The notes beneath the pieces were generated by a model. That model saw only the letters and a program-made list of their open reading frames with translations, had not been told where the DNA came from and searched no databases. Both the position numbers and the translations under genes were made by a program. Below, piece after piece: positions 4,087-37,982 of a DNA stretch of 37,982 nucleotides. This stretch comes from a virus. Position 1 is the stretch's first letter; each line of letters opens with the position of its first letter. The stretch spans positions 1 through 37,982 of the IMG/VR virus record IMGVR_UViG_3300019755_000004; one strand, 5' to 3'.

Positions 4087-4587
4087 TTAATCCTCTTTTT
4101 CTATTGCAAGTCCACGACCTAGCCAATTGAAAATGTCGTAATGTTTTGAGGCTAGTATCATAGCAGCAGATAAGCTTATATTGCTTGTAAAACCTAACTT
4201 AGCTGCAATTATATCATCTTTCGTCATGCCTTTTTTATCTTCTTCGGTTAGCTTGCTTAATGGCTTAACTATTGGCTTAAATCCACCGCCAAATAAAGTA
4301 AAACGCTTTAATCCTGCTTTCATTGTTCCTACTCTAACAGAAGTTCCGTTTTTCCAATCTTCGATTATTTTAATATAACCTACTCTATTGCCGATTATCT
4401 CTTTTGGTGAATTGAATGGTTCTAATTCTTCAGTACTAAATGGGAAATCGCAAGAATACAGATTTCTTTTGTTATATTCTTCTCTATACTTGGATAATTC
4501 AATGCCATTAATAATGCCTTTATACTGTACTTGTAAGTTTGTGCCCAAGTACATTTTCAATTCTTCTACTTTAATATAATCTTTCAT
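4087..4587 (-). CDS. Phage hypothetical protein with KHYDIFNWLGRGLA C-terminus (paralogue 1)
   Basis: A 166-residue protein. Its first 16 residues (MKDYIKVEELKMYLGT) and its end (ASKHYDIFNWLGRGLAIE) are nearly the same as those of the 170-residue protein at 36192-36704, while the middle parts differ strongly. The C-terminal tag with a hydrophobic helix ending in a Gly-Leu-Ala-acidic motif is common in small Bacteroidota phage proteins, as recalled. The shared ends suggest a common interaction partner or docking role with a variable centre. It is the first gene of a leftward transcript that diverges from the replication operon. Confidence 0.65.
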   Translation of the reverse strand: MKDYIKVEELKMYLGTNLQVQYKGIINGIELSKYREEYNKRNLYSCDFPFSTEELEPFNSPKEIIGNRVGYIKIIEDWKNGTSVRVGTMKAGLKRFTLFGGGFKPIVKPLSKLTEEDKKGMTKDDIIAAKLGFTSNISLSAAMILASKHYDIFNWLGRGLAIEKED

Positions 4588-4677: not shown

Positions 4678-4824
4678 ATGAAACAGAAAACAAAAACATT
4701 TTCAATCAGAATTGAAGAGGCTACGCTTAACCAGGTTAAAGACATAGCAAATAAAAAAGAAAGAAGTACTAACGCTCAATTAATATATTTAATTAAGCAA
4801 GGATTAAATAAAAAGGAGAAATAG
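4678..4824 (+). CDS. Ribbon-helix-helix (Arc/CopG-type) DNA-binding protein, 48 residues
   Basis: The protein has the layout of an Arc/CopG repressor: a short beta strand (KTFSIRIEE), a first helix (ATLNQVKDIANKKE), a turn with Ser-Thr-Asn, and a second helix (NAQLIYLIKQGL). Such proteins bind palindromic operators as dimers through the beta strand, here probably with T5/T7, S9 and R11 facing DNA. It is the first gene of the rightward replication operon, right at a divergent promoter, the usual place for a phage regulator. It is a candidate for binding the repeated ATGTTGTACAACAT sites, but nothing in the sequence proves that pairing; the XRE protein at 23481-23675 is the rival candidate. Confidence 0.72.
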   Translation: MKQKTKTFSIRIEEATLNQVKDIANKKERSTNAQLIYLIKQGLNKKEK

Positions 4825-7680: not shown

Positions 7681-7749
7681 AACACTGAAAAAACAAATTC
7701 GTACAATTGAGTTTATTTTAAAAAATTATTGAAAAAACTATCTAAATAT

Positions 7750-7780
7750 TTTGCAATTGAATAATATTGTTGTATATTTA
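7750..7780 (+). promoter_or_regulatory. Rightward promoter with the 21-bp shared block (copy 2)
   Basis: -33 TTTG (7750-7753), 19-nt spacer, -7 TATATTTA (7773-7780). The block 7751-7771 is identical to the reverse complement of 2539-2559 and of 24360-24380. It lies upstream of the ATG at 7815. Confidence 0.68.
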
Positions 7781-7814
7781 AGTATTGAAAGAAACAAATA
7801 AAACAAAAGACAAA

Positions 7815-12024: not shown

Positions 12025-12079
12025 ATGTTGCACAACATACGCAAATAGCTTGATAATTGATTTTATTAGGCTATTTTTG
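12025..12079 (+). promoter_or_regulatory. Rightward promoter with upstream palindrome (site C)
   Basis: Palindrome ATGTTGCACAACAT (12025-12038), -33 TTG (12050-12052), 19-nt spacer, -7 TATTTTTG (12072-12079). The centre of the palindrome is 47.5 bp from the -7 end. The block AACATGTTGCACAACATAC matches site B read on the minus strand. Confidence 0.75.
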
Positions 12080-12106
12080 TATTAACGTTTAACTAAAAAA
12101 TGAGAT

Positions 12107-13165
12107 ATGAAAGATTTTAAAAAAGGTGATTCAGTTCAGATTAAAGACGGTAGTTATATGCTTAATAAGTCTACATTAGAAAATTATGGAACTGGTAGTA
12201 CAAAAGTAATAGGATGGAACAGAGAGGTGTGGGATGTAATTAAGACTGGCAAAGTATTAGTGTTTACGGATGATTCAGTAGAATTAGATACATTAATCAA
12301 GAATACTGTTAACGGTGAAGAATGGCTATGTAATGCTAAGATTAATTTAAAGCCTGCATCTGACAAAAAAGAGCCGATACCAAAAACGTGGCTCTTTACA
12401 TGTACTCCTATTTTATTCGATGTTCCTGATTCATTCGGCAACGTTATTTCAAAAGATTGTATAATTAACACAGATAAACTAAACAAGATGAAAAAGACAT
12501 TTACATTAAAAACGCTTGATTCAATTAAGCAAACAGAAAAAGGTTACGAGATTAGCGGTGAAGTTGAAGAGGAAATTACCGAAGTTGAAGAGATTAAAGA
12601 CAATTTAAAGAAAGACCCAATAAGCGGTAAGTATGTTAATGCAGAGGAACATAAGCAGGTCGAGTTAGTGAGGGGAGAGGTGTATGTGTGCGAGGATGGT
12701 GAAAAATTAGAAATATTTAGACACAATCCCTCTGAATGGCTTAATTCTACAAGAATTGATTATTATAGTTTACTCAAAATAAATAAATCAAAAATAAACA
12801 CAGATTTTATTCAAAACAGATTTATACAGGGCATAGATTACATTAAATCATTATGTCCTGCCACCGAAGAAGAGAAAGCAAAATTAATTAAAGCTGAAGA
12901 GCAACACGGCCTATATTGGGACGACGGAAAGAAAGACTTTTTGAAGTTGGAAGAAGTGTATTGTAAACTAGATGACTTAAGTGATTTGTTGAATATATAC
13001 AGCATTAGAGCTGATTTTGTTTGTGAGGGTTCAACATTAAGGATGAAATATTGTTATATTGGATTCAGTGAGGGGAATTTTGAAAGATATTACGAACCTA
13101 TGACTAATAGAAAACTAGTCAACAAAGAAACATTTATTAACATCTTAAAACACCGTAAGTTATGA
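12107..13165 (+). CDS. Hypothetical cassette protein, 352 residues
   Basis: It is inserted between portal and Mu F-like head genes behind its own promoter (site C). The N-terminus (MKDFKKGDSVQIKDGSYMLN) has the look of a small SH3-like barrel. A central acidic segment (EEEITEVEEIKDNLKK) is probably disordered. Near 270-300 the motif CPATEEEKAKLIKAEEQHGL with YWDDGKKDFLK resembles a short module seen in many Bacteroidota phage proteins (PATEEEK...G..W), recalled from memory. No enzymatic motif is visible. Its last 48 bases are duplicated 256 bp downstream. A structural role is unlikely given the separate promoter. Confidence 0.65.
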   Translation: MKDFKKGDSVQIKDGSYMLNKSTLENYGTGSTKVIGWNREVWDVIKTGKVLVFTDDSVELDTLIKNTVNGEEWLCNAKINLKPASDKKEPIPKTWLFTCTPILFDVPDSFGNVISKDCIINTDKLNKMKKTFTLKTLDSIKQTEKGYEISGEVEEEITEVEEIKDNLKKDPISGKYVNAEEHKQVELVRGEVYVCEDGEKLEIFRHNPSEWLNSTRIDYYSLLKINKSKINTDFIQNRFIQGIDYIKSLCPATEEEKAKLIKAEEQHGLYWDDGKKDFLKLEEVYCKLDDLSDLLNIYSIRADFVCEGSTLRMKYCYIGFSEGNFERYYEPMTNRKLVNKETFINILKHRKL

Positions 13166-13166
13166 A
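13119..13166 (+). repeat. 48-bp direct repeat, copy 1
   Basis: The last codons of the 352-residue gene plus the start of the next gene. It matches 13375-13422 with two mismatches and ends on the same TAAGTTATGAA start context. Confidence 0.85.
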
Positions 13167-13374
13167 CACACATTTAGAAAAAAGAGAAGCTTATAAGATT
13201 GTGGCAGAGTTACAACAGAAAGTAATTATGCACGAAAAACGAATTAGCAGAGAAAGAAAAAATAAAGACGAACATTCAGAAATTGTGATTGCTGATTGTA
13301 ATAGCAAAATCAAAGCCTACCAAAAATCAATAGAGTTGATAATTAAAGCGTTTAAACTTGAATTTGAACAATAA
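13162..13374 (+). CDS. Small coiled-coil protein, 70 residues
   Basis: A charged helical protein (YKIVAELQQKVIMHEKRISR...IADCNSKIKAYQKSIELIIKA) that is very likely a single coiled coil. It overlaps the stop of the upstream gene by 4 nt (ATGA-type coupling) and belongs to the site C cassette. No family is recognised. Confidence 0.55.
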   Translation: MNTHLEKREAYKIVAELQQKVIMHEKRISRERKNKDEHSEIVIADCNSKIKAYQKSIELIIKAFKLEFEQ

Positions 13375-13422
13375 TCAACAAAGAAACATTTTTAAACATC
13401 TTAAAACACCGTAAGTTATGAA
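13375..13422 (+). repeat. 48-bp direct repeat, copy 2
   Basis: It repeats 13119-13166 with two substitutions. Here the coding sense is lost (an in-frame stop appears), but the translation start context is preserved and now serves the gene at 13418. It marks a past duplication or insertion event. Confidence 0.85.
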
Positions 13423-13606
13423 AAGAATATTAAGAATTAGCTTGAAAATATTATCACTACTTATATTTTCATGTATAGTAAGTGGTATAGTTTATTATAG
13501 TTGTAAATGGTTAGATATAATAGGTTATTGGCAAGGATGGCTAAGCGGTATAATAACACTAATACTAGATATGATATTTGCATATAAAGTAGATATTTGG
13601 AAATAA
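13418..13606 (+). CDS. Small two-span membrane protein, 62 residues
   Basis: After a basic start (MKRILRISLKI) come two hydrophobic segments, about 8-28 (LKILSLLIFSCIVSGIVYYS) and 38-57 (YWQGWLSGIITLILDMIFAY). It is an inner-membrane protein of unknown role. It begins on a duplicated copy of the upstream gene junction and has lower coding complexity than its neighbours, which suggests a recently acquired moron gene. Confidence 0.55.
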   Translation: MKRILRISLKILSLLIFSCIVSGIVYYSCKWLDIIGYWQGWLSGIITLILDMIFAYKVDIWK

Positions 13607-13612
13607 CCAGTA

Positions 13613-13629
13613 GTTCGGAATTTCCGAAC
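13613..13629. promoter_or_regulatory. 17-bp perfect palindrome GTTCGGAA-T-TTCCGAAC
   Basis: An inverted repeat with 8-bp arms and a single central base, lying just after the membrane-protein stop and before the terminator/promoter of the Mu F-like gene. It looks like a dimer binding site; as RNA it could not form a hairpin with a normal loop without losing central pairs. Confidence 0.55.
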
Positions 13630-13639
13630 ACCTCAAAAG

Positions 13640-13667
13640 CCTCATTATTAATTTAGTGAGGTTTTTT
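13640..13667 (+). terminator. Intrinsic terminator before the Mu F-like gene
   Basis: Stem CCTCA (13640-13644) with TGAGG (13657-13661), followed by TTTTTT. It ends the site C cassette transcript just before the next promoter. Confidence 0.65.
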
Positions 13668-13668
13668 G

Positions 13669-13676
13669 TATCTTAG
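13669..13676 (+). promoter_or_regulatory. Promoter of the Mu F-like head gene (leaderless start)
   Basis: -7-like element TATCTTAG ends 4 nt before the ATG at 13681, so the transcript would begin at about the start codon. It follows a terminator by 1 base. Confidence 0.5.
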
Positions 13677-13680
13677 CACT

Positions 13681-14475
13681 ATGAAAAAGAGAATATCTAA
13701 AAGACAACGTAAACAGTATAACGACCTAAGAAAGTCTATACCGCGTTATATTACTTCAATGACTAAGAAGATAGAGCCAAAGAGATTAGCTTATATTAAG
13801 TCGATTATTAAAGCCATAAAGGGTAAGAGTATTTCTGATGCTAAAAAGATAATCAAGAAAGCCAACGACCAAAGCTATATGACTGCCATTTACAAGAATC
13901 TGTACTACACGCTAGGCATGACGATTGCCAAAGGTCAGTATAATATACTCAATTCCCGTAAAGCTGACGAAATTAACGAATTAGAGAAAACATGGTTAGC
14001 TGAGTTGGATAAGTTCGTAAAGACTTACTCAGGGGTTCAGATCAAGACAATTAGTAAGAGCCTAAGAGAACAACTACTAGCTAAACTAGACGGATTCGTT
14101 AAAGATGCGGTTGAACAAGGTGAAAGTATCGAGGTTGTTACGGATAAGATTGTTAAGGATATGGATGGGTTTTTCACGGATGCTAATAAATGGCAGGCAA
14201 GGAGAATTGCACACACTGAAACCATGCACGCAGCTGGTAAAGCACAGGAAGTCTCTGTTGATAGTCTAGGGATAGAGTATTGGAAAGTATGGAACGCGGT
14301 CTTTAACAACACTCGACCAAGTCACCAAGCCATGCAAGGGGTTGCCGTGAAGAAAGGTAAACCTTTCAATGTTAATGGCAGTAAAATGATGTTTCCTAGT
14401 GATTCTAGTATGGGTGCAGATGTCAGTGAGATAGTTAACTGTTCCTGTTTCCTAGTGTTTGAACCAATACGCTAA
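13681..14475 (+). CDS. Minor head protein, Mu gpF / SPP1 gp7-like
   Basis: A 264-residue protein. The ATG at 13681 is chosen because the -7 element lies just upstream. A helical basic N-terminal half is followed by the family domain: WQARRIAHTETMHAAGKAQ (about 178-196), IEYWKVWNAVFNNTRPSHQAM with the conserved R-x-x-H, and the terminal VNCSCFLVFEP. Mu F-like proteins sit with the portal in the procapsid and are thought to aid DNA ejection or head assembly. Normally they follow the portal directly; here a 1.6-kb cassette separates them. Confidence 0.88.
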   Translation: MKKRISKRQRKQYNDLRKSIPRYITSMTKKIEPKRLAYIKSIIKAIKGKSISDAKKIIKKANDQSYMTAIYKNLYYTLGMTIAKGQYNILNSRKADEINELEKTWLAELDKFVKTYSGVQIKTISKSLREQLLAKLDGFVKDAVEQGESIEVVTDKIVKDMDGFFTDANKWQARRIAHTETMHAAGKAQEVSVDSLGIEYWKVWNAVFNNTRPSHQAMQGVAVKKGKPFNVNGSKMMFPSDSSMGADVSEIVNCSCFLVFEPIR

Positions 14476-14476
14476 T

Positions 14477-14531
14477 ATGTTGTAGAACATGTTTAAAGTT
14501 ATTGTATATTCATAAATTATTTATACTTTTA
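14477..14531 (+). promoter_or_regulatory. Rightward promoter with upstream palindrome (site D)
   Basis: Palindrome ATGTTGTAGAACAT (14477-14490); -7-like TACTTTTA (14524-14531). Centre to -7 end is 47.5 bp. It drives the exported small protein gene at 14583. Confidence 0.65.
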
Positions 14532-14582
14532 CATACACGAAACTAGGGTATATTCCCACAAAATCATTAAATAATAATTATT

Positions 14583-14915
14583 ATGAAACATTTGCTTTTA
14601 ATGCTTATTATGGCATTATCTTTTATTATTTTTAGTCCTGTCGATTCGCTCGCCACGGATAATGAAAATAATAAACAAGAAGTACAGATTGAACAAACAA
14701 TACAATGTGTAAACGTTGTAGCAATCAATGTTCAGTCAGATTGTAGTCTAATCTTAGACTTAGAGAGTGATATGGTAACTTATGAATTAGTAGAAACCAA
14801 TTACTCAGTTAATAAATATCAATGTATTAAGGAGGAATTTAAGCGACTCAGTTTCAAAGCACCTTTTTATACTATTATATTATTAGCTACTATAAGATAC
14901 AAGACGATTCAATAA
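14583..14915 (+). CDS. Exported small protein with signal peptide, 110 residues
   Basis: A clear signal peptide: MKHLLLMLIMALSFIIFSPV followed by DSLA and a charged mature start (TDNENNKQ), with likely cleavage after about residue 24. The mature part holds two cysteines that could pair and ends in a short hydrophobic stretch (FYTIILLATI). No family is recognised. Export to the periplasm of the infected cell, from a gene with its own promoter and terminator in the head operon, fits a moron acting on the envelope, such as superinfection exclusion; this is inference. Confidence 0.6.
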   Translation: MKHLLLMLIMALSFIIFSPVDSLATDNENNKQEVQIEQTIQCVNVVAINVQSDCSLILDLESDMVTYELVETNYSVNKYQCIKEEFKRLSFKAPFYTIILLATIRYKTIQ

Positions 14916-14989
14916 GAGGGAAATATATCTGCAAGATATTTCAACCTCACAATGGAAAGATATTAAGTTAATAAAAAATAAAATATTTA

Positions 14990-15022
14990 AAGACCATCTA
15001 CATAACGCTAGATGGTCTTTTT
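14990..15022 (+). terminator. Strong intrinsic terminator after the exported protein gene
   Basis: An 11-bp stem AAGACCATCTA (14990-15000) with TAGATGGTCTT (15009-15019) and a T-run. The next palindrome (site E) starts immediately at 15023. Confidence 0.85.
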
Positions 15023-15077
15023 ATGTTGTACAACATATAAATACTTTCGGTTAATTGCGTTTAATTCGCTACTTTTG
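15023..15077 (+). promoter_or_regulatory. Rightward promoter with upstream palindrome (site E)
   Basis: Perfect palindrome ATGTTGTACAACAT (15023-15036), weak -33 TTTC (15045-15048), -7 TACTTTTG (15070-15077). Centre to -7 end is 47.5 bp. It serves the two-gene cassette 15105-15505. Confidence 0.75.
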
Positions 15078-15104
15078 AGGTATAACATTTAAAATAATAG
15101 AAAG

Positions 15105-15308
15105 ATGGAAGTACAAATAACAGGGATATTCCCAATGCCAACAGACGTAACTAGCGTTAGTGATGGTATGCCATTGTATAAATTTAAAAGAGTAAGGGCT
15201 GAATTTATAATTAATGGCATTTTTAATTGTAGTTGTATTATGCCTATATGTGAAGATGGTGATTATAAAGAATCGATAATTAATAAATTAAAAGAATCGA
15301 TAAAATGA
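15105..15308 (+). CDS. Hypothetical protein, CSC-MPI family, paralogue 1
   Basis: A 67-residue protein sharing the pattern FIINGIFNCSCIMPI and a C-terminal IINKLKESI helix with the 66-residue protein at 23678-23878 (FLLNNIFECSCTMPI, IIEKLKETL). The Cys-Ser-Cys could bind a metal or form a disulphide. Both copies sit in promoter-bearing accessory cassettes but on opposite strands. No function is known. Confidence 0.6.
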   Translation: MEVQITGIFPMPTDVTSVSDGMPLYKFKRVRAEFIINGIFNCSCIMPICEDGDYKESIINKLKESIK

Positions 15309-15505
15309 AATCAAAACTACTAGCAAAAGTAAGAAAGGATATTGCCATTGAGCATAACAACGTGGGTTTAACGCGCGTTATTATACCTAGTAATGGTTAT
15401 GTAGTAAACGATTGGAGTTTACTTAAGAAGTCACGCAACGTTATGAGAACGGTTATACTAGGACGTGCAGAAAAGTATCGTAAAAAGATTAAAAGAAAGA
15501 AATAA
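15305..15505 (+). CDS. Hypothetical very basic protein, 66 residues
   Basis: Lysine- and arginine-rich at both ends, with the tail RAEKYRKKIKRKK. It overlaps the preceding gene by 4 nt (ATGA), so it is coupled to it. Nucleic-acid or ribosome binding is possible from charge; no family is recognised. Confidence 0.55.
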   Translation: MKSKLLAKVRKDIAIEHNNVGLTRVIIPSNGYVVNDWSLLKKSRNVMRTVILGRAEKYRKKIKRKK

Positions 15506-15510
15506 TTCAC

Positions 15511-15518
15511 TATATTTG
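15511..15518 (+). promoter_or_regulatory. Promoter with no gene downstream (candidate sRNA promoter)
   Basis: -7 element TATATTTG, 5 nt after a stop codon. A terminator follows about 45 nt later with no open frame between. Confidence 0.5.
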
Positions 15519-15522
15519 CACT

Positions 15523-15587
15523 TGTAAACTTCTCATTAGTTATTGTGTTAATCTTTAAGAGTCGCCCTTTATAGGGTGGCTTTTTTT
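15523..15587 (+). ncRNA. Candidate small RNA, about 65 nt
   Basis: Bounded by the promoter at 15511-15518 and an intrinsic terminator at 15561-15587. There is no ATG and no plausible frame. It could also be just the trailer of the upstream transcript, with a chance -7 element. No known RNA family is recognised. Confidence 0.35.
15561..15587 (+). terminator. Intrinsic terminator
   Basis: An 8-bp stem GTCGCCCT/AGGGTGGC (two G-U pairs) with a TTAT loop and seven Ts. Site F begins at 15588, directly after the T-run. Confidence 0.82.
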
Positions 15588-15642
15588 ATGTTGTACAACA
15601 TAGTTTTATTTTATGATATTTATTTGAAAATATGTAAATTTG
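15588..15642 (+). promoter_or_regulatory. Rightward promoter with upstream palindrome (site F)
   Basis: Perfect palindrome ATGTTGTACAACAT (15588-15601); -7 TAAATTTG (15635-15642). Centre to -7 end is 47.5 bp. It drives the gene at 15673. Confidence 0.72.
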
Positions 15643-15672: not shown

Positions 15673-15966
15673 ATGATAGAGCAAGAAATCATAAAAGTAA
15701 ACGCAAAATATCTTAATAAAGAAGTTAAGAATATGAACGCAAAGGGTTATAGATTAGTGAGTATATTAGAAACTACTCCAGCATATAGTATTGAAAGCAC
15801 AGGAGGATTCAGCGTGGGTGATGATGAAAAGAAAACGCTATTATTTGAAAAGGCTAATCATATTACTATTGAAGTAGAAAAAAAACTAATAGACAGAATG
15901 TTTAAAGAAATGGCTAAAGATATTGAAAAAGAGATTGATAAAGATATATTAAAAGAGAATAATTAA
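15673..15966 (+). CDS. Hypothetical protein, 97 residues
   Basis: An N-terminal alpha/beta part with NAKGYRLVSILETTPAYS, similar in style to small DUF4177-like proteins that carry a GYxLVS/VSVxxT motif, and a long helical C-terminus (VEKKLIDRMFKEMAKDIEKE...). The assignment to that family is only suggestive. It is a single-gene unit behind site F. No transmembrane segment. Confidence 0.55.
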   Translation: MIEQEIIKVNAKYLNKEVKNMNAKGYRLVSILETTPAYSIESTGGFSVGDDEKKTLLFEKANHITIEVEKKLIDRMFKEMAKDIEKEIDKDILKENN

Positions 15967-15967
15967 C

Positions 15968-15975
15968 TATATTTG
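15968..15975 (+). promoter_or_regulatory. Rightward promoter before the 93-residue gene
   Basis: -7 element TATATTTG two bases after the stop of the previous gene and about 40 nt before the ATG at 16015. No palindrome is associated. Confidence 0.55.
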
Positions 15976-16014
15976 TTATATACAATCATTTATTAATTTA
16001 TAAATTTATTTATT

Positions 16015-16296
16015 ATGTTTTATTTAAGAAAAGTAGAAAACGAAAACAACAGAGTGTCAAATCAATGCCTAGGTGATAACTATAAAATAAGATGGCACGG
16101 GGGTGATGTGGATTCTGAAAAGTTTTTAGAAGAATGTAAAATACATTTTGATTGGATGAAAGAATCTGATATGAAAGATATAATTCAGATTGTTACAAAT
16201 CACAATGGTAGCGAATCATTTCCTATATTTAAAGGTAATAAAGGTAATTATATTATGACTGAAAATGGTAATACATTTGAGAAACTATTATCATAA
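16015..16296 (+). CDS. Conserved phage hypothetical protein, 93 residues
   Basis: Begins MFYLRKVENENNRVSNQCLGDNY and ends IFKGNKGNYIMTENGNTFEKL. The start MFYLRKVE...xNQxLGDNY and the final ..YIMTEnGnTFExL are a recurring pattern of small Bacteroidota phage proteins, as recalled; function is unknown. It carries its own promoter and is followed by a strong terminator, so it is an independent cassette. Confidence 0.6.
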   Translation: MFYLRKVENENNRVSNQCLGDNYKIRWHGGDVDSEKFLEECKIHFDWMKESDMKDIIQIVTNHNGSESFPIFKGNKGNYIMTENGNTFEKLLS

Positions 16297-16368: not shown

Positions 16369-16407
16369 ATGTTATACAACATATTTGATTTTTTTTTCTT
16401 ACATTTG
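16369..16407 (+). promoter_or_regulatory. Promoter of protease/capsid operon overlapped by palindrome (site G)
   Basis: Palindrome variant ATGTTATACAACAT (16369-16382) and -7 TACATTTG (16400-16407). Centre to -7 end is only 31.5 bp, so the palindrome covers the -33 region. This position suits repression, unlike sites A-F. The -7 element ends 4 nt before the ATG at 16412. Confidence 0.6.
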
Positions 16408-16411
16408 TTGT

Positions 16412-17053
16412 ATGAGCAAAAAATTAGAATATAAACACATAGATGCAGCCAATCTCGAAGAGTTTGAATGGAAAGCAGACGAGAATGGAATTAAGCGACT
16501 ATTAGTAAAAGGTTATGCAGCCGTATTCGGTAACGAGGACAGTTATGGCGACGTAATAGAAAAAGGTGCTTTTACAGAAACAATACAAGGCAAAAACGGC
16601 TCACGTATTGCATTTTGTTGGCAGCACGATATTAGACAACCAATAGGGAATGTATTAGTTCTTAAAGAAGATGATAAGGGTTTATATTTTGAGGCTCTTG
16701 TTAGTGCATCTGAATCAGACAAAGCCACTAAGATAGAAGAAAAGATAATCAAAGAGTTTTCTATTGGATATTGGACTGAACAGAAAGAATATCAACAAAA
16801 TGAGGTTGATGGACGAGAAATAAGAATATTAAAGAAACTCGGATTAGCCGAATTTTCAGCCGTTACAAGGGCAGCAAATGACGAGGCAACTGTAATAGGC
16901 ACTGAACGCAAAGAGGAGGAATTTAAGGCAATGACTGAAGATTTAGATAAGAAATCAGACGAGGATCTTATTGATGTTCAGAAGAAACTAGAAAACTCTT
17001 TACATGAAGTAAAGAACGAAATAGAGAAACGAGTATTATTATCAATAAATTAA
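16412..17053 (+). CDS. Prohead protease (HK97 family, peptidase U35/S78)
   Basis: The ATG at 16412 (MSKKLEYKHIDAANL) is chosen; an earlier in-frame ATG at 16385 lies within the promoter. The family signature GYAAVFGNEDSYGDVIEKGAF (about 35-55) is followed by the catalytic His in CWQHD and the catalytic Ser in IIKEFSIGYW. The charged helical C-terminus (after about 180) is a scaffolding-like segment. It matures the capsid by cutting the delta domain of the next gene product. Its predicted message is leaderless. Confidence 0.92.
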   Translation: MSKKLEYKHIDAANLEEFEWKADENGIKRLLVKGYAAVFGNEDSYGDVIEKGAFTETIQGKNGSRIAFCWQHDIRQPIGNVLVLKEDDKGLYFEALVSASESDKATKIEEKIIKEFSIGYWTEQKEYQQNEVDGREIRILKKLGLAEFSAVTRAANDEATVIGTERKEEEFKAMTEDLDKKSDEDLIDVQKKLENSLHEVKNEIEKRVLLSIN

Positions 17054-20028: not shown

Positions 20029-20424
20029 CTATTTACTTAGTGAATTAATTACATAATCATATAATATAATCGGTTGTTCAGTAAATGGCTTAGAACAGTC
20101 GTATCTTGATATTATCTCACATAATTCATCACTTCCTGCTAATGGATGAAGATTTTGTTTGGCACGCATAATATCTTCTAAGTGAATTTCATTGAATACG
20201 TCGTTCTTATCTATATCTGATATAAGAACATCGGTAAACTCACCGCCACCCCAATTTATTAATATGCCTTTATTTTCTTCTGAATACTCGTCGTCTGTGA
20301 GTATTTCGCAAACAATACCAGTAGAAATGTTTTGTATAAAACTGCCTAAATCAATAGTTCTTGTACTTTCTACCAAATCTCTAACTAGCTTACTAGCTTT
20401 CTGTAATTTTTCCTCTTTTGTCAT
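20029..20424 (-). CDS. Hypothetical protein, 131 residues
   Basis: An acidic helical protein (EKLQKASKLVRDLVESTRTI, DIMRAKQNLHPLAGSDEL, then CEIISRYDCS) with no recognised family. It is the last gene of the leftward cassette controlled from site H; the gap to the preceding gene is 4 nt. Its codon use and AT content match other accessory genes. Confidence 0.58.
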   Translation of the reverse strand: MTKEEKLQKASKLVRDLVESTRTIDLGSFIQNISTGIVCEILTDDEYSEENKGILINWGGGEFTDVLISDIDKNDVFNEIHLEDIMRAKQNLHPLAGSDELCEIISRYDCSKPFTEQPIILYDYVINSLSK

Positions 20425-20428
20425 TTTT

Positions 20429-20695
20429 TTACTCCTTAATTAAGTTATTTAAATACTCCGAATCGTTTAGTATTCGGTTGCGCTCTTTCCAAAGGACCTC
20501 TTCTTGTTTTTCTAGTTGTTCTTTGGTGAACTTAGCCTCTTTGTCTTTTAGGTCGTGAAACATCAATGCTCTATCTACTTGAGTTAGTTTGTCGTTAATC
20601 AAACTTATCAACATTGAATCTTGTTGCGCTTTCTCAAGCATTACACCTATGCTTGATGGCTTGGTTGGTCTGTCTAAAATTAGTTTTGATGCCAT
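20429..20695 (-). CDS. Hypothetical helical protein, 88 residues
   Basis: Almost entirely helical and charged (LTQVDRALMFHDLKDKEAKF, TKEQLEKQEEVLWKERNRIL). No motif or family is recognised. It is the third gene of the leftward cassette, 9 nt downstream of the 71-residue gene. Confidence 0.55.
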   Translation of the reverse strand: MASKLILDRPTKPSSIGVMLEKAQQDSMLISLINDKLTQVDRALMFHDLKDKEAKFTKEQLEKQEEVLWKERNRILNDSEYLNNLIKE

Positions 20696-20704
20696 GTTAT
20701 TTAG

Positions 20705-20920
20705 TTATTTAATTTTATTATACCATTGTTTATTAAAATCTAGTATAGCTAAATACGGAGAATCCCCAAAGCCTGATATGCCACTTTGTAAATCTTCACC
20801 ATACAATACACACCACTGATTGCCATCTTGTTTTAATTGTGGTTTTAATATAGCAAATAAATTAAACTCTTCTTTCTGAATAGCTGTATTAAATTCTGAC
20901 TGCTTAATGTTTTGTTCCAT
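20705..20920 (-). CDS. Conserved phage hypothetical protein, 71 residues
   Basis: The start ATG at 20920 (MEQNIKQSEFNTAIQKEEFN) is preferred to one 33 nt upstream. The core FAILKPQLKQDGNQWCVLYG with EDLQSGISGFGDSPYLAILD and FNKQWYN is a recurrent motif in small proteins of Bacteroidota phages, recalled from memory; function is unknown. Compact alpha/beta composition, no membrane segment. Confidence 0.65.
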   Translation of the reverse strand: MEQNIKQSEFNTAIQKEEFNLFAILKPQLKQDGNQWCVLYGEDLQSGISGFGDSPYLAILDFNKQWYNKIK

Positions 20921-20962
20921 CACTTTTCTATTTTTAATTAAACTTATACCCAAAACTACACT

Positions 20963-21289
20963 CTATGATTTGGTTTTATCATTATCATCATTACTAGCTG
21001 AAAAACCATCTACTTTGCCATTAGATATAGATGATAAAAGAATATCAACATCATCCACTAAAATACTACTAATACCACTAAATTTATTTCTATTTCTATC
21101 TAATAATTCAGCATGTGTTATTGGGTGAGGAATCTTTAATCCCATGTCTCTGGCCATAGATGCAGTCATGCATGCGCTGTGCATGTTTACTGATGCAATA
21201 TAACATCTTGACTTTTTATTTTTTTCATAACAAAGTTTTATTAACTCAGTTGTCTTTCCTTCTCGTCTGCCTTTTATTATTGTTTTCAT
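20963..21289 (-). CDS. Mini P-loop NTPase, 108 residues
   Basis: Walker A is GRREGKTT (7-14), preceded by a strand MKTIIK. Walker B is SILVDDVDILL with D79/D80. Between them lie RCYIASVNMHSACMT and HAELLDRNRN. This looks like the first half of a RecA/helicase-type fold, or a reduced ATPase as found in other Bacteroidota phages. It is the first gene of the leftward site H cassette. With no partner domain, its role (DNA handling or regulation) is open. The disordered tail ends SNDDNDKTKS. Confidence 0.68.
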   Translation of the reverse strand: MKTIIKGRREGKTTELIKLCYEKNKKSRCYIASVNMHSACMTASMARDMGLKIPHPITHAELLDRNRNKFSGISSILVDDVDILLSSISNGKVDGFSASNDDNDKTKS

Positions 21290-21329: not shown

Positions 21330-21384
21330 CAAAACTACACCTTTTAAAATAAATAAAATAATAATTCTATATGTTCTACAACAT
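21330..21384 (-). promoter_or_regulatory. Leftward promoter with upstream palindrome (site H, minus side)
   Basis: Minus-strand -7 TAGTTTTG (21330-21337). Palindrome ATGTTGTAGAACAT (minus-strand sense, 21371-21384) with its centre 47.5 bp from the -7 end, the same geometry as sites B-F. Confidence 0.72.
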
Positions 21385-21408
21385 ATTTAGATTATTTTCA
21401 TATATTTG
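21371..21408 (+). promoter_or_regulatory. Rightward promoter sharing site H
   Basis: -7 TATATTTG (21401-21408). The palindrome centre is 30.5 bp from its end, covering the -33 region, as at site G. One bound protein could activate the leftward promoter and block this one. Confidence 0.6.
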
Positions 21409-21558: not shown

Positions 21559-22791
21559 ATGGCGACAAAATCAAGAGTAAACATCAAGACGTATAATGAT
21601 AATTACATCAATACAAATGGTAATGGTGATATAAGCGGTAAGGATGTACACGATATTTACGAGGACATCGCCGATTCAATGCTAATGGCTGAAGATGTTA
21701 TAAACGATGATACCACAGGGGGAGCAGACAGACCAGTAAGCGCAGAAGTTGCCAAGACTCACGGTACAGAAATAGACTCATTAACTACACAATCAAATAC
21801 AAATACTTCCGAGATAGCGAGAGTTGAATCAGACCTAAAGGATGATATTAACGGAATCGACAACGCGGTAGACAAAAATACCGCAGATATAGCAACAAAC
21901 AAACAGGATATAGTAAGTAATACCCAAGCATTTGCGGACCTAATAAAGGAATACGGCTCACTAGGTAGAGTAAGGTTCGACGAATCAAACAAACACTTTT
22001 ATTTTGAGGTAAAAGACGGCACTGCATGGATTATTAAGGCTGAGATAGGTAAATCTATTATTGTAGATGCGCTTAGGCTAATAAAAGGTGAAAATCCTAC
22101 AAATATAATACCTGGAGAGATAGCACTATACAATAAAGAAATAACATTACCCGATGGTAGTAAATCGGTACGTTCTCATTTTGTTTTGGAAGATGGCACA
22201 GAATACGGCTTTGTTGTTAATAATCAGCAAACAGATGAAGTAGTTTTCCGTAAAGACTCTGGAGAACTAATCCATATTCCTATTATATATTCTGATGAAA
22301 ATAATGACTATACAGATATACAAAAAATAAAATTTGTTGGTAGTGTTTCAGTAGCAAAAGATGCTACAGACTCTAAAAAATTAATTGTTAATGTTAAAGG
22401 AAAAGGAGACGAACAGGGAGATACTCCAGGAACTCTTTATGAATCAGACTTAAATGAAGATCAGTTTGAAAGAGATTTAGGTACAAATAAGATTCAATTA
22501 AAAGAAAGTATAGAAGGATTAGATTTAACAGGTTTTACTGTATTTAAACAGAATGTGGTGGTAGTAATACCTTTCTCCACTGGAGATACCTTTACTTCAT
22601 TTCTATTACCCTTAGATATTCCTGCAGATGTTCAAGTATCTGTCTTGTCTATATATAAACAAAATCCAAAAACTCAATTCATAGAAGAAATCACACCGAA
22701 TTATCTATATGATCCTCAGTCAAAAGAGATTGCATTTGCTATGGGTGCTAGAAATTTAGTTGGTAATATAACCATGTTATTTATGAAATAA
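21559..22791 (+). CDS. Virion appendage (head/neck fibre-like) protein, 410 residues
   Basis: The N-terminus VNIKTYNDNYINTNGNGDIS with GKDVHDIYEDIADSM resembles the anchoring end of structural fibre proteins in Bacteroidota phages, as recalled. A predicted trimeric coiled-coil stretch follows (about 75-135: TQSNTNTSEIARVESDLKDD, NTADIATNKQDIVSNTQ), then a beta-rich distal part. From about residue 230 the composition becomes more AT-rich in DNA, suggesting an exchanged distal domain. It lies between the neck and tail-terminator genes, not with the tail fibre, so a neck, collar or head fibre is plausible. Confidence 0.68.
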   Translation: MATKSRVNIKTYNDNYINTNGNGDISGKDVHDIYEDIADSMLMAEDVINDDTTGGADRPVSAEVAKTHGTEIDSLTTQSNTNTSEIARVESDLKDDINGIDNAVDKNTADIATNKQDIVSNTQAFADLIKEYGSLGRVRFDESNKHFYFEVKDGTAWIIKAEIGKSIIVDALRLIKGENPTNIIPGEIALYNKEITLPDGSKSVRSHFVLEDGTEYGFVVNNQQTDEVVFRKDSGELIHIPIIYSDENNDYTDIQKIKFVGSVSVAKDATDSKKLIVNVKGKGDEQGDTPGTLYESDLNEDQFERDLGTNKIQLKESIEGLDLTGFTVFKQNVVVVIPFSTGDTFTSFLLPLDIPADVQVSVLSIYKQNPKTQFIEEITPNYLYDPQSKEIAFAMGARNLVGNITMLFMK

Positions 22792-23383: not shown

Positions 23384-23481
23384 GTTATTCTTTCATTTTT
23401 CTTTTCCTCCTTATTTGCTAGATAAATAACTACTTTAAGCATTATCGCTACTGTTATTACTCCGAATATTAATTCACTCAT
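23374..23481 (-). CDS. Single-span membrane peptide, 35 residues
   Basis: Reads MSELIFGVITVAIMLKVVIY then LANKEEKKNERITRG: one hydrophobic helix followed by a strongly charged tail. Its ATG overlaps the stop of the XRE-type gene (TAATG), indicating translational coupling. The end runs into the terminator stem. Possible small toxin-like or membrane regulator; no family is recognised. Confidence 0.5.
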   Translation of the reverse strand: MSELIFGVITVAIMLKVVIYLANKEEKKNERITRG

Positions 23482-23677: not shown

Positions 23678-23878
23678 TTATAATGTTTCTTTTAGTTTTT
23701 CAATTATTGCTTTTTCTATTTCTTCATCTTTAGGGATAGGCATAGTACAACTGCATTCAAATATATTATTAAGTAAGAATCTTACTTCTACTTTTTCATG
23801 TATAACTTTTGGTATCATATCGCCTACACAAATCATATGAGTTGGAATCTTATTAAGTTCTATTATTTCTATTTTCAT
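23678..23878 (-). CDS. Hypothetical protein, CSC-MPI family, paralogue 2
   Basis: A 66-residue protein related to the gene at 15105-15308: FLLNNIFECSCTMPI against FIINGIFNCSCIMPI, and the C-terminal helix IIEKLKETL against IINKLKESI. The two N-termini also align in outline (beta strand, then a Pro-Thr pair). It sits 2 nt upstream of the XRE gene. Function is unknown; duplication and relocation between two cassettes is clear. Confidence 0.6.
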   Translation of the reverse strand: MKIEIIELNKIPTHMICVGDMIPKVIHEKVEVRFLLNNIFECSCTMPIPKDEEIEKAIIEKLKETL

Positions 23879-24310: not shown

Positions 24311-24350
24311 TTTTATTAGTTTTTGTCGTTATTACCATTTGATTACACTG

Positions 24351-24380
24351 CTAAAGTACAACAATATTATTCAATTGCAA
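24351..24380 (-). promoter_or_regulatory. Leftward promoter with the 21-bp shared block (copy 3)
   Basis: Minus-strand -7-like TACTTTAG (24351-24358), 19-nt spacer, -33 TTG (24378-24380). The block 24360-24380 is identical to 2539-2559 and (inverted) 7751-7771. Confidence 0.7.
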
Positions 24381-24428
24381 TAGAATTACTGAATTATTTT
24401 TTAATTATTTTAATTATTTTAATTTTCC

Positions 24429-33062: not shown

Positions 33063-33090
33063 ATGTTCTACAACATATTTTGTATATTTG
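33063..33090 (+). promoter_or_regulatory. Rightward promoter with palindrome in the spacer (site I)
   Basis: Palindrome ATGTTCTACAACAT (33063-33076) and -7 TATATTTG (33083-33090). Centre to -7 end is 20.5 bp, so the palindrome lies between -33 and -7, a repressing position. On the minus strand a weak -7-like TAAAATTG (33021-33028) would be 48.5 bp from the centre, but it faces no leftward gene. Confidence 0.55.
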
Positions 33091-33114: not shown

Positions 33115-33546
33115 ATGAAAAAAGAATTAACAAACGTTGAGATTTTCGAGGTAACACAAGTTATTAACATGTGTATTAACCAAAATAGGGATAATTTTCG
33201 TTGGAATTATTGCCTGCAAAAAAACATTAAGACAGTAAGCGGAATAGTCAAAGACATTCAAGCATCTTTGCCAAAAGCACCTGAGGCACCTGTTAAGCCT
33301 GAGCCGTTTGAAATGTCAACAGAAGAGGGAGCAAAAGCTAAACACGACGAATTGATGAAAGTTTATGAGGTCGAGTTAAAAGCTTTCAAAGAATCGGAAG
33401 AGAAGAAACAATATGACGAGAAAATCAAAGAAATCGAGCAAATAAAACAAGAGGTAGATTTCTATGAGATAGATATTGAGAATGTTCCCGAAAACGCGAA
33501 CTCTCAAGAAACGAGTTTATTTATTAATTATTTAACTAAAAATTAA
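33115..33546 (+). CDS. Hypothetical helical protein, 143 residues
   Basis: The ATG at 33115 (MKKELTNVEIFEVTQVINM) is chosen because the promoter lies at 33083-33090; a longer in-frame extension runs through that promoter. The first 60 residues look globular with a Cys pair in helices; a Pro/Glu linker (PKAPEAPVKPEP) precedes a long charged coiled coil (VELKAFKESEEKKQYDEKIK). No family is recognised. It stands between fibre and lysis genes. Confidence 0.58.
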   Translation: MKKELTNVEIFEVTQVINMCINQNRDNFRWNYCLQKNIKTVSGIVKDIQASLPKAPEAPVKPEPFEMSTEEGAKAKHDELMKVYEVELKAFKESEEKKQYDEKIKEIEQIKQEVDFYEIDIENVPENANSQETSLFINYLTKN

Positions 33547-36191: not shown

Positions 36192-36704
36192 TTAGTTAGA
36201 TTTAAGTTCTTTAGCAAGTCCACGACCTAGCCAATTGAAAATGTCATAATGTTTGGATGCTAGATAATTTATTATTAGTATGTGATTCAATTCTTTCTCA
36301 ATTGGAGCAGAACTTCCACAAGTTATAAAGCAATTTGAAAAAATGCCATCTTTCAATATTATCTCCATAGAACAAGATAAATTATAATTACTTTTATAAG
36401 TAAAAAATATATTCCCATCTCCATCACAACCTACCGCAACTCTTTCCTGACAAAAAACTGGCTGAACCTCTTTAAATTCAACTCTCAAATCTTTAGTTAT
36501 TAATTTACATAACTCAACTGCATGAAGTTCAGTAAAATTAGACAACGGTCTAACGTATGGAATCATATTTATATCTTTACTCATTAAATCGTTCCATTGG
36601 AAATGAATTTCATCGAAATTTAAGTCATGTCCTTTTATACACTTAAATATTAATCCTGTACCTCCGTACATCTTCAATTCTTCTACTTTAATACAATCTT
36701 TCAT
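36192..36704 (-). CDS. Phage hypothetical protein with KHYDIFNWLGRGLA C-terminus (paralogue 2)
   Basis: A 170-residue protein. The N-terminus MKDCIKVEELKMYGGTGLIF and C-terminus LASKHYDIFNWLGRGLAKE match the protein at 4087-4587, whereas the centre, with several cysteines (QERVAVGCDGDGNIFFTYKS), does not. The DNA at the conserved ends is also almost identical, so the ends may be kept alike by recombination while the centre is replaced. It shares the leftward operon with DUF1064. Confidence 0.65.
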   Translation of the reverse strand: MKDCIKVEELKMYGGTGLIFKCIKGHDLNFDEIHFQWNDLMSKDINMIPYVRPLSNFTELHAVELCKLITKDLRVEFKEVQPVFCQERVAVGCDGDGNIFFTYKSNYNLSCSMEIILKDGIFSNCFITCGSSAPIEKELNHILIINYLASKHYDIFNWLGRGLAKELKSN

Positions 36705-37296: not shown

Positions 37297-37982
37297 TTAT
37301 TCCTCAAAAAATGCTTTAAAAGAACTTCCGCCATATTCATTTTTCGTAAGCTCGATTATTTCTTTGATTGAATATTTATCTTTTTTATCTTCCAATCTAT
37401 TATTTACAAAATCTTTAGTTCCAAAAGAACAAGCGCCAGTAACCACTCTATAACAAATAACCGCATCAGCGAAATCTAATTTGCTATCTAAAGTTAAATC
37501 TTTATAATCTTCCTTGCTTCTGTTATTGGTCTTGAATAATAAATCTTGTTGAGCATCTTTAATTGTATCTCCGTGAGCGTAATTACCTTTTCCATCAGTA
37601 ATTAGATAAAATTCCTTTGTTCTATTTAATTGCCTTACTTTTCTGATATTTCCCTTAATGTGCAATACCTCTGTAAACATATCATCAGCTTTAATGTACT
37701 TGTTATTTTGCCATGATAATAATGGAATATTTTGATATTCATAGTCGGATATAGATTTGTCTTTAGGAATTGTTACTCCTGTACCTACCAAGTCAAGAGA
37801 GCCACCCACAGTAAGGTTATCAGGTAATGATGTGATTGCTGTACCTCCCAAGTAAAGAGAGCCACCCACAGTAAGGTTATCAGGTAATGATGTGATTGCT
37901 GTACCTACCAAGTCAAGAGAGTCGCCCACAGTAAGGTTATCAGGTAATGATGTGATTGCTGTACCTCGCAAGTAAAGATAGC
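37297..37982 (-). CDS. Leucine-rich-repeat protein, C-terminal part (continues from 194)
   Basis: After the last repeat (GTAITSLPDNLTVGGSLDLV and the degenerate GTGVTIPKDKS) comes a distinct C-terminal domain of about 150 residues: YIKADDMFTEVLHIKGNIRK, TKEFYLITDGKGNYAHGDTI, then KDAQQDLLFK and a helical end. Repeat plus KGNYAHGDTIKDA-type domain is a combination recalled from other phage-encoded proteins of unknown function. It joins in frame with the 1-194 segment. Regulated from site A. The unit number in the assembly (four full repeats) is a minimum estimate. Confidence 0.85.
   Translation of the reverse strand, partial: YLYLRGTAITSLPDNLTVGDSLDLVGTAITSLPDNLTVGGSLYLGGTAITSLPDNLTVGGSLDLVGTGVTIPKDKSISDYEYQNIPLLSWQNNKYIKADDMFTEVLHIKGNIRKVRQLNRTKEFYLITDGKGNYAHGDTIKDAQQDLLFKTNNRSKEDYKDLTLDSKLDFADAVICYRVVTGACSFGTKDFVNNRLEDKKDKYSIKEIIELTKNEYGGSSFKAFFEE
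37784..37982 (-). repeat. 60-bp tandem repeats (leucine-rich repeat coding), right part
   Basis: Three 60-bp units, at 37784, 37844 and 37904; the last is the terminal overlap copy of 1-60. The units differ mainly in the codons for the two residues either side of the SL(D/Y)L step and the last residue of the unit (V, G or R). Unit number is likely to vary between isolates through slippage or recombination. Confidence 0.88.
37904..37982. repeat. 79-bp terminal direct repeat, right copy
   Basis: Identical to positions 1-79. If the two copies are merged, the non-redundant length is 37903 bp, and the leftward leucine-rich-repeat gene runs without interruption from 194 through the junction to 37297 (801 nt, 267 codons including the stop). 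Confidence 0.9.

Follow-up and report, generated by a model that had tools for sequence, protein, structure and literature searches.

Nine copies of a 14-bp palindrome (ATGTTnnnnAACAT) are dispersed through the virus genome of IMG/VR record IMGVR_UViG_3300019755_000004, all 37,982 nucleotides of which form the window analyzed here, and the question that they raise is which regulator reads them and with what consequence for the genes that follow. Comparison with bacterial and viral DNA and with a published motif makes it probable that the phage has taken over the binding sites of a Crp-family regulator of its host, one like BT4338/Cur (MalR) of the Bacteroidales.

An initial annotation of this DNA had listed nine palindromes, all between genes, and argued that their exact spacing from promoters was beyond chance AT richness. 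All nine are present, at positions 272, 1864, 12025, 14477, 15023, 15588, 16369, 21371, and 33063. Two are perfect copies of ATGTTGTACAACAT (15023 and 15588) and seven have one differing base; when the search was relaxed further, no copy was found at two mismatches and just four at three. The pattern ATGTTNYRNAACAT matches the record nine times against 0.02 expected from dinucleotide shuffles, and its reversed control pattern does not match the record at all. Every one of the nine is intergenic, in a record of which intergenic DNA makes up 7.8%.

The palindromes are also held at a fixed distance from promoters. From the palindrome centre to the last base of a TAnnTTTG −7 element the distance is 47.5 bp at 1864 (minus strand), 12025, 15023, and 15588 (plus strand), and 21371 (minus strand), and 48.5 bp at 272 (minus strand). 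At these six promoters TAnnTTTG thus begins 33 or 34 nt past the palindrome, an arrangement that shuffled flanks produced 0.04 times on average and never more than twice. The annotation had counted seven such promoters; the seventh, at 14477 (plus strand), has the degenerate element TACTTTTA (TAnnTTTA) at 47.5 bp, which makes six strict promoters and a degenerate one, on both strands. At all seven of these sites the half-site far from the promoter, read on the promoter strand, is a perfect ATGTTG, and deviations are confined to the palindrome centre or to the half near the promoter. Elsewhere the closest TAnnTTTG in the sense direction lies 17 nt (16369), 6 nt (33063), or 16 nt (plus side of 21371) from the palindrome.

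Comparative genomics of Bacteroides has assigned to the Crp-family protein BT4338 the motif wwwTATGTTnTAnAACATAwww, which stands ahead of the arabinose, xylose, and fucose operons and of BT4338 itself (Ravcheev 2013, PMC3878776). Also named Cur or MalR, this protein is the master regulator through which Bacteroides controls its use of carbohydrates and its colonization of the gut. It is a direct activator under carbon limitation and acts as both activator and repressor, and in work using chromatin immunoprecipitation (ChIP) deletion of the 22-bp site upstream of fusA2 led to loss of binding and activation (Townsend 2020, PMC6989115). The phage core ATGTTGTACAACAT agrees letter for letter with the BT4338 consensus. 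The phage sites conform to TATGTTnTAnAACATA, with the core ATGTTnTAnAACAT exact in seven of the nine and one base off at 1864 and 12025, where CA replaces the central TA. The position found in host promoters, with its 33- or 34-nt spacer, is likewise shared by the six TAnnTTTG promoters and the one with TAnnTTTA, and not by 16369 and 33063. Literature searches with the palindrome as a string returned nothing relevant, those on phages with Crp sites nothing describing such wiring, and, within the collection of papers searched, those joining Bacteroides, phage, and BT4338 only work on S-layer (surface-layer) resistance.

The core is shared with the BT4338 regulon (PMC3878776, PMC6989115), and in Bacteroidales chromosomes it stands at the same position upstream of TAnnTTTG. 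The strict pattern occurs in at least 120 stretches of bacterial genomes, nearly all of them Bacteroidales among the 80 titles listed. With the spacer left free between 20 and 50 nt, eight Bacteroidales genomes gave 29 matches of motif plus promoter, 20 of them at 33/34 nt, or 12 of 21 when the one match for which each genome had been chosen is left out. When 119 genomes were drawn evenly from the Bacteroidales, 16 of them had any match. The genes downstream in the bacterial loci, named by eye from translations, include ribulose-phosphate epimerase, fucose permease-like proteins, aldose 1-epimerase, amylases, and LacI/GntR regulators, as expected of a Cur regulon, and the promoter consensus of these loci has a weak TTTG (−33 box) 9–12 nt past the palindrome. 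Compared with the bacterial genomes sampled, the phage carries its sites at about 150 times the density (4 strict-form promoters in 38 kb versus 20 in about 29 Mb), and they precede genes of recombination and of cassettes instead of genes for sugar use.

Recurrence at the same spacing was also found in viruses unrelated to this phage. In a sample of IMG/VR matches with the spacer free between 20 and 50 nt, there were at least 22 distinct cases at 33 nt and at least 8 at 34 nt, against about 2.5 per other spacing, and a dedicated, complete scan of viral DNA gave 106 stretches at 33/34 nt versus 21 at the control spacing of 25/26 nt. The free-spacer sample has a secondary excess at 43–44 nt (5 and 7 cases), one helical turn further, which is suggestive only; the 16- and 17-nt spacers of the plus side of 21371 and of 16369 were considered as a second recurrent class and rejected, the viral counts at 16–17 nt being only background. 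In three viral loci (L258, L261, and L267) divergent promoters use one common palindrome with 33 nt on each side, as expected of a symmetric activator site. A homologous recombination operon in another virus (L290; 59% and 52% identity) is headed by CTGTTATATAACAT-N33-TATTTTTG, and a further locus (L287) has three successive units that each begin with such a promoter, so the wiring is present in more than one phage. Relatives of the terminase were found at 14 loci in viral contigs (28–47% identity), none with the nine-site pattern, and no relatives of the replicative helicase or tape measure protein were confirmed there. Among named phages there is no close DNA relative, bar a 240-bp methyltransferase match.

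A search of the phage record for cyclic nucleotide monophosphate-binding or HTH_Crp (HTH_Crp_2) proteins found none, and of 53 further motif-bearing viral records not one had a Crp protein above cut-off, whereas all eight motif-bearing Bacteroidales genomes encode Crp-type helix-turn-helix proteins, mostly 2–4 HTH_Crp proteins per genome. One Crp clade (53–99% identity) was detected by tblastn in seven of the eight (L362–L367 and L375), and its genes carry the palindrome between their own −7 element and start codon, with 0–1 mismatch in six. This placement ties the clade to the motif, and its position fits autorepression, suggesting that the clade represses itself through its own palindrome.

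The annotation had pointed to two phage proteins as possible readers, and they are real candidates: the ribbon-helix-helix protein encoded at 4678–4824 matches Arc (PF03869), the XRE protein at 23481–23675 matches HTH_3, and such proteins bind dyads. One of them could run a phage-specific regulon whose likeness to the host motif arose by convergence or site takeover. The viral loci with this motif and geometry yielded no relative of the one or the other, however. Bacterial chromosomes that lack this phage have both motif and spacing, and the match is to a host regulator already described; the phage also has a second repeated promoter block, TTGCAATTGAATAATATTGTT, at which a phage repressor could act in place of the palindromes. 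It is thus very unlikely that either protein runs a phage-specific regulon, and because the phage lacks a Crp protein, the bacterial genomes have one, and neither phage protein travels with the site, a host-supplied regulator is the simplest reading. That regulator might be another Crp/Fnr-family protein, not an orthologue of BT4338/Cur, responding to redox or nitrosative stress and not to carbon status, given that most genomes examined have two to four HTH_Crp proteins and that Crp-family dyads look alike. We consider this very unlikely, as the published motif was assigned to BT4338 with a deletion test (PMC6989115), the clade whose own promoter bears the palindrome is shared more widely than any other, and many of the host downstream genes belong to sugar metabolism.

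A host regulator could also use every palindrome as a repressor operator, so that the cassettes and recombination genes would stay silent until circumstances altered. BT4338 is a repressor as well as an activator, and three phage sites overlap core promoters, but the dimer would lie wholly upstream of the expected −33 region at six or seven of the promoters, and one fixed distance, in common with host sugar-gene promoters, fits polymerase contact better than blocking. Repression throughout is therefore very unlikely. Several observations weigh against a Cur-type activator. The Crp clade is at most a putative BT4338 orthologue, and many BT4338 ChIP-seq peaks match the predicted motif only in part (PMC6989115). 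Deletion of cur in Bacteroides thetaiotaomicron brought little change in susceptibility to phage ARB25, a phage not shown to carry sites. The wiring is not general: among named phages, ten that infect Bacteroides and one that infects Porphyromonas have 0–1 palindromes. Single-protein comparisons give prophages of Porphyromonas gingivalis and phages of Flavobacterium/Cellulophaga as the nearest named relatives. A distant relative of the phage, G034, has six palindromes mostly at other spacings. Three copies of TTTTGCAAAAC-ATGTTATAAAACAT in G034 (L257, positions 4962, 7160, and 13022) have a −7-like sequence close behind, which puts the palindrome between −33 and −7, as expected of a repressor operator.

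With a Cur-type host activator as the preferred reading, the units served by the sites fall into place as follows (Table 1). The promoters with 33- or 34-nt spacers lead to the leucine-rich-repeat (LRR) gene (272), the recombination operon (1864), four plus-strand cassettes set among the portal, head-morphogenesis, and protease genes (12025, 14477, 15023, and 15588), and a minus-strand cassette (21371). Because the sites at 15023 and 15588 directly follow terminator-like sequence, each of these two cassettes is self-contained, with a predicted Cur site, promoter, and terminator.

Table 1. Positions of the nine palindromic sites (A–I), their −7 elements, and associated genes in the 37,982-nt window
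Feature	Position	Strand	Remarks
Site A, predicted Cur/Crp-type, ATGTTGTAGAACAT on minus strand	272–285	−	Upstream of LRR gene starting at 194
−7 element of site A, TATTTTTG	230–237	−	34 nt from site, 48.5 bp from centre
LRR gene, 5′ part	3–194	−	Continues 37980–37297 across record ends
Site B, predicted Cur/Crp-type, ATGTTGCACAACAT on minus strand	1864–1877	−	Head of recombination operon
−7 element of site B, TACTTTTG	1823–1830	−	33 nt from site
Recombination operon	301–1800	−	1291–1800 phrog_21613; 656–1294 YqaJ exonuclease; 301–645 DUF3127/SSB
Site C, predicted Cur/Crp-type	12025–12038	+	3 bp past portal gene stop codon
−7 element of site C, TATTTTTG	12072–12079	+	33 nt from site; ahead of 12107–13606
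Site D, predicted Cur/Crp-type	14477–14490	+	
Degenerate −7 element of site D, TACTTTTA	14524–14531	+	33 nt from site; ahead of 14583–14915
Site E, predicted Cur/Crp-type, perfect palindrome	15023–15036	+	Immediately past terminator-like hairpin
−7 element of site E, TACTTTTG	15070–15077	+	33 nt from site; ahead of 15105–15505
Site F, predicted Cur/Crp-type, perfect palindrome	15588–15601	+	Immediately past terminator-like T run
−7 element of site F, TAAATTTG	15635–15642	+	33 nt from site; ahead of 15673–16296
Site G	16369–16382	+	Over expected −33 of TACATTTG (16400–16407); head protease ATG at 16412
Site H	21371–21384	−	Between divergent units; 33 nt from TAGTTTTG (21337–21330), minus cassette 20029–21289
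Site H, plus side			16 nt from TATATTTG (21401–21408), toward 21559–22791
Site I	33063–33076	+	6 nt upstream of TATATTTG (33083–33090); gene starts at 33115

On this reading, a host Cur dimer whose centre lies 47.5 or 48.5 bp ahead of the last base of the −7 element would bring RNA polymerase to those promoters, six or seven in number, whose −33 boxes are weak. The inserted cassettes, the recombination operon, and the LRR gene would then be expressed under host carbon limitation, a signal carried over by analogy from B. thetaiotaomicron. At site G and on the plus side of site H the palindrome lies over the expected position of the −33 box, and at site I it lies between the expected −33 and −7. 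From the autoregulatory position in the Bacteroidales Crp clade and the known repression by BT4338, the same dimer, over the −33 box or spacer, may repress the protease/capsid unit at 16369, the 21559 gene at 21371 (plus side), and the 33115 gene at 33063; the TAnnTTTG matches near these three sites may themselves be due to chance. The single dimeric regulator proposed in the initial annotation, with activation likely at the 47.5-bp sites, agrees with these data, as does its joining of the LRR gene with the recombination operon and the head-region cassettes; uniform activation is doubtful, given the three sites on core promoters. It is possible, though less likely than not, that Cur activates recombination and cassette genes from about −52 while repressing late structural promoters from sites on their cores, the nutrient state of the host picking the phage programme.

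Several other features of the units and of the record were observed. Defence-system models gave one weak match only to the cassette proteins. Two paralogous small proteins share NxIFxCSCxMPI, one in a predicted Cur-site cassette (15105–15308, plus strand) and one beside the XRE gene (23678–23878, minus strand), and a 57-nt direct repeat (91%; 13110–13166 and 13366–13422), likely a trace of recombination or duplication, takes in the last part of a cassette gene and the first part of the one after it. The LRR gene, relatives of which are present in L075 and L052, has 60-nt tandem repeats at both record ends (1–203 and 37724–37982). No end repeats are recorded for the virus; because the LRR gene reaches both ends, the record is probably near-complete and cut inside these repeats, and we read it as a circularly permuted or terminally redundant genome. 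Paralogous proteins in distant operons (4087–4587 and 36192–36704, both minus strand) share N-terminal KVEELKMY and C-terminal ASKHYDIFNWLGRGLA, and also appear as DNA repeats D7 and D9. A second promoter class comprises three copies of TTGCAATTGAATAATATTGTT[C/G]TA (2530–2592, minus; 7710–7790, plus; 24340–24420, minus), a block that spans −33 to −7 without a Cur site and whose imperfect inverted repeat, CAAT-N8-ATTG, could be a phage repressor operator.

The arrangement has partial counterparts in other phages. In P2/P4, Ogr/Delta is a dimeric activator with a dyad near −55 that serves several dispersed late promoters, much as is proposed for the phage here. It is a zinc-finger protein encoded by the phage itself, and its dyad is spaced and of another kind. 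In contrast, no phage-encoded activator was found here, there being no Crp-type match in the record and no search aimed specifically at an Ogr-like protein. Mycobacteriophage stoperators and start-associated sequences are also short regulatory repeats scattered over a phage genome in small gaps between genes. They are targets of a phage repressor or abut translation starts, whereas the element described here is a host motif at a fixed distance to the −7 element. Like the present cassettes, lambdoid morons lie in the structural region and each bring a terminator and promoter of their own; here, several cassettes have one type of regulator site in common.

The site of the regulator is already known; what is new is the dense and geometrically exact use, by a Bacteroidota phage, of the sites of a host nutritional master regulator. 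If this reading is correct, placing phage recombination genes and accessory cassettes under Cur would couple infection to the nutrient state of the host, and the exact spacing between Cur site and promoter can be used to predict which Bacteroidales promoters Cur activates.

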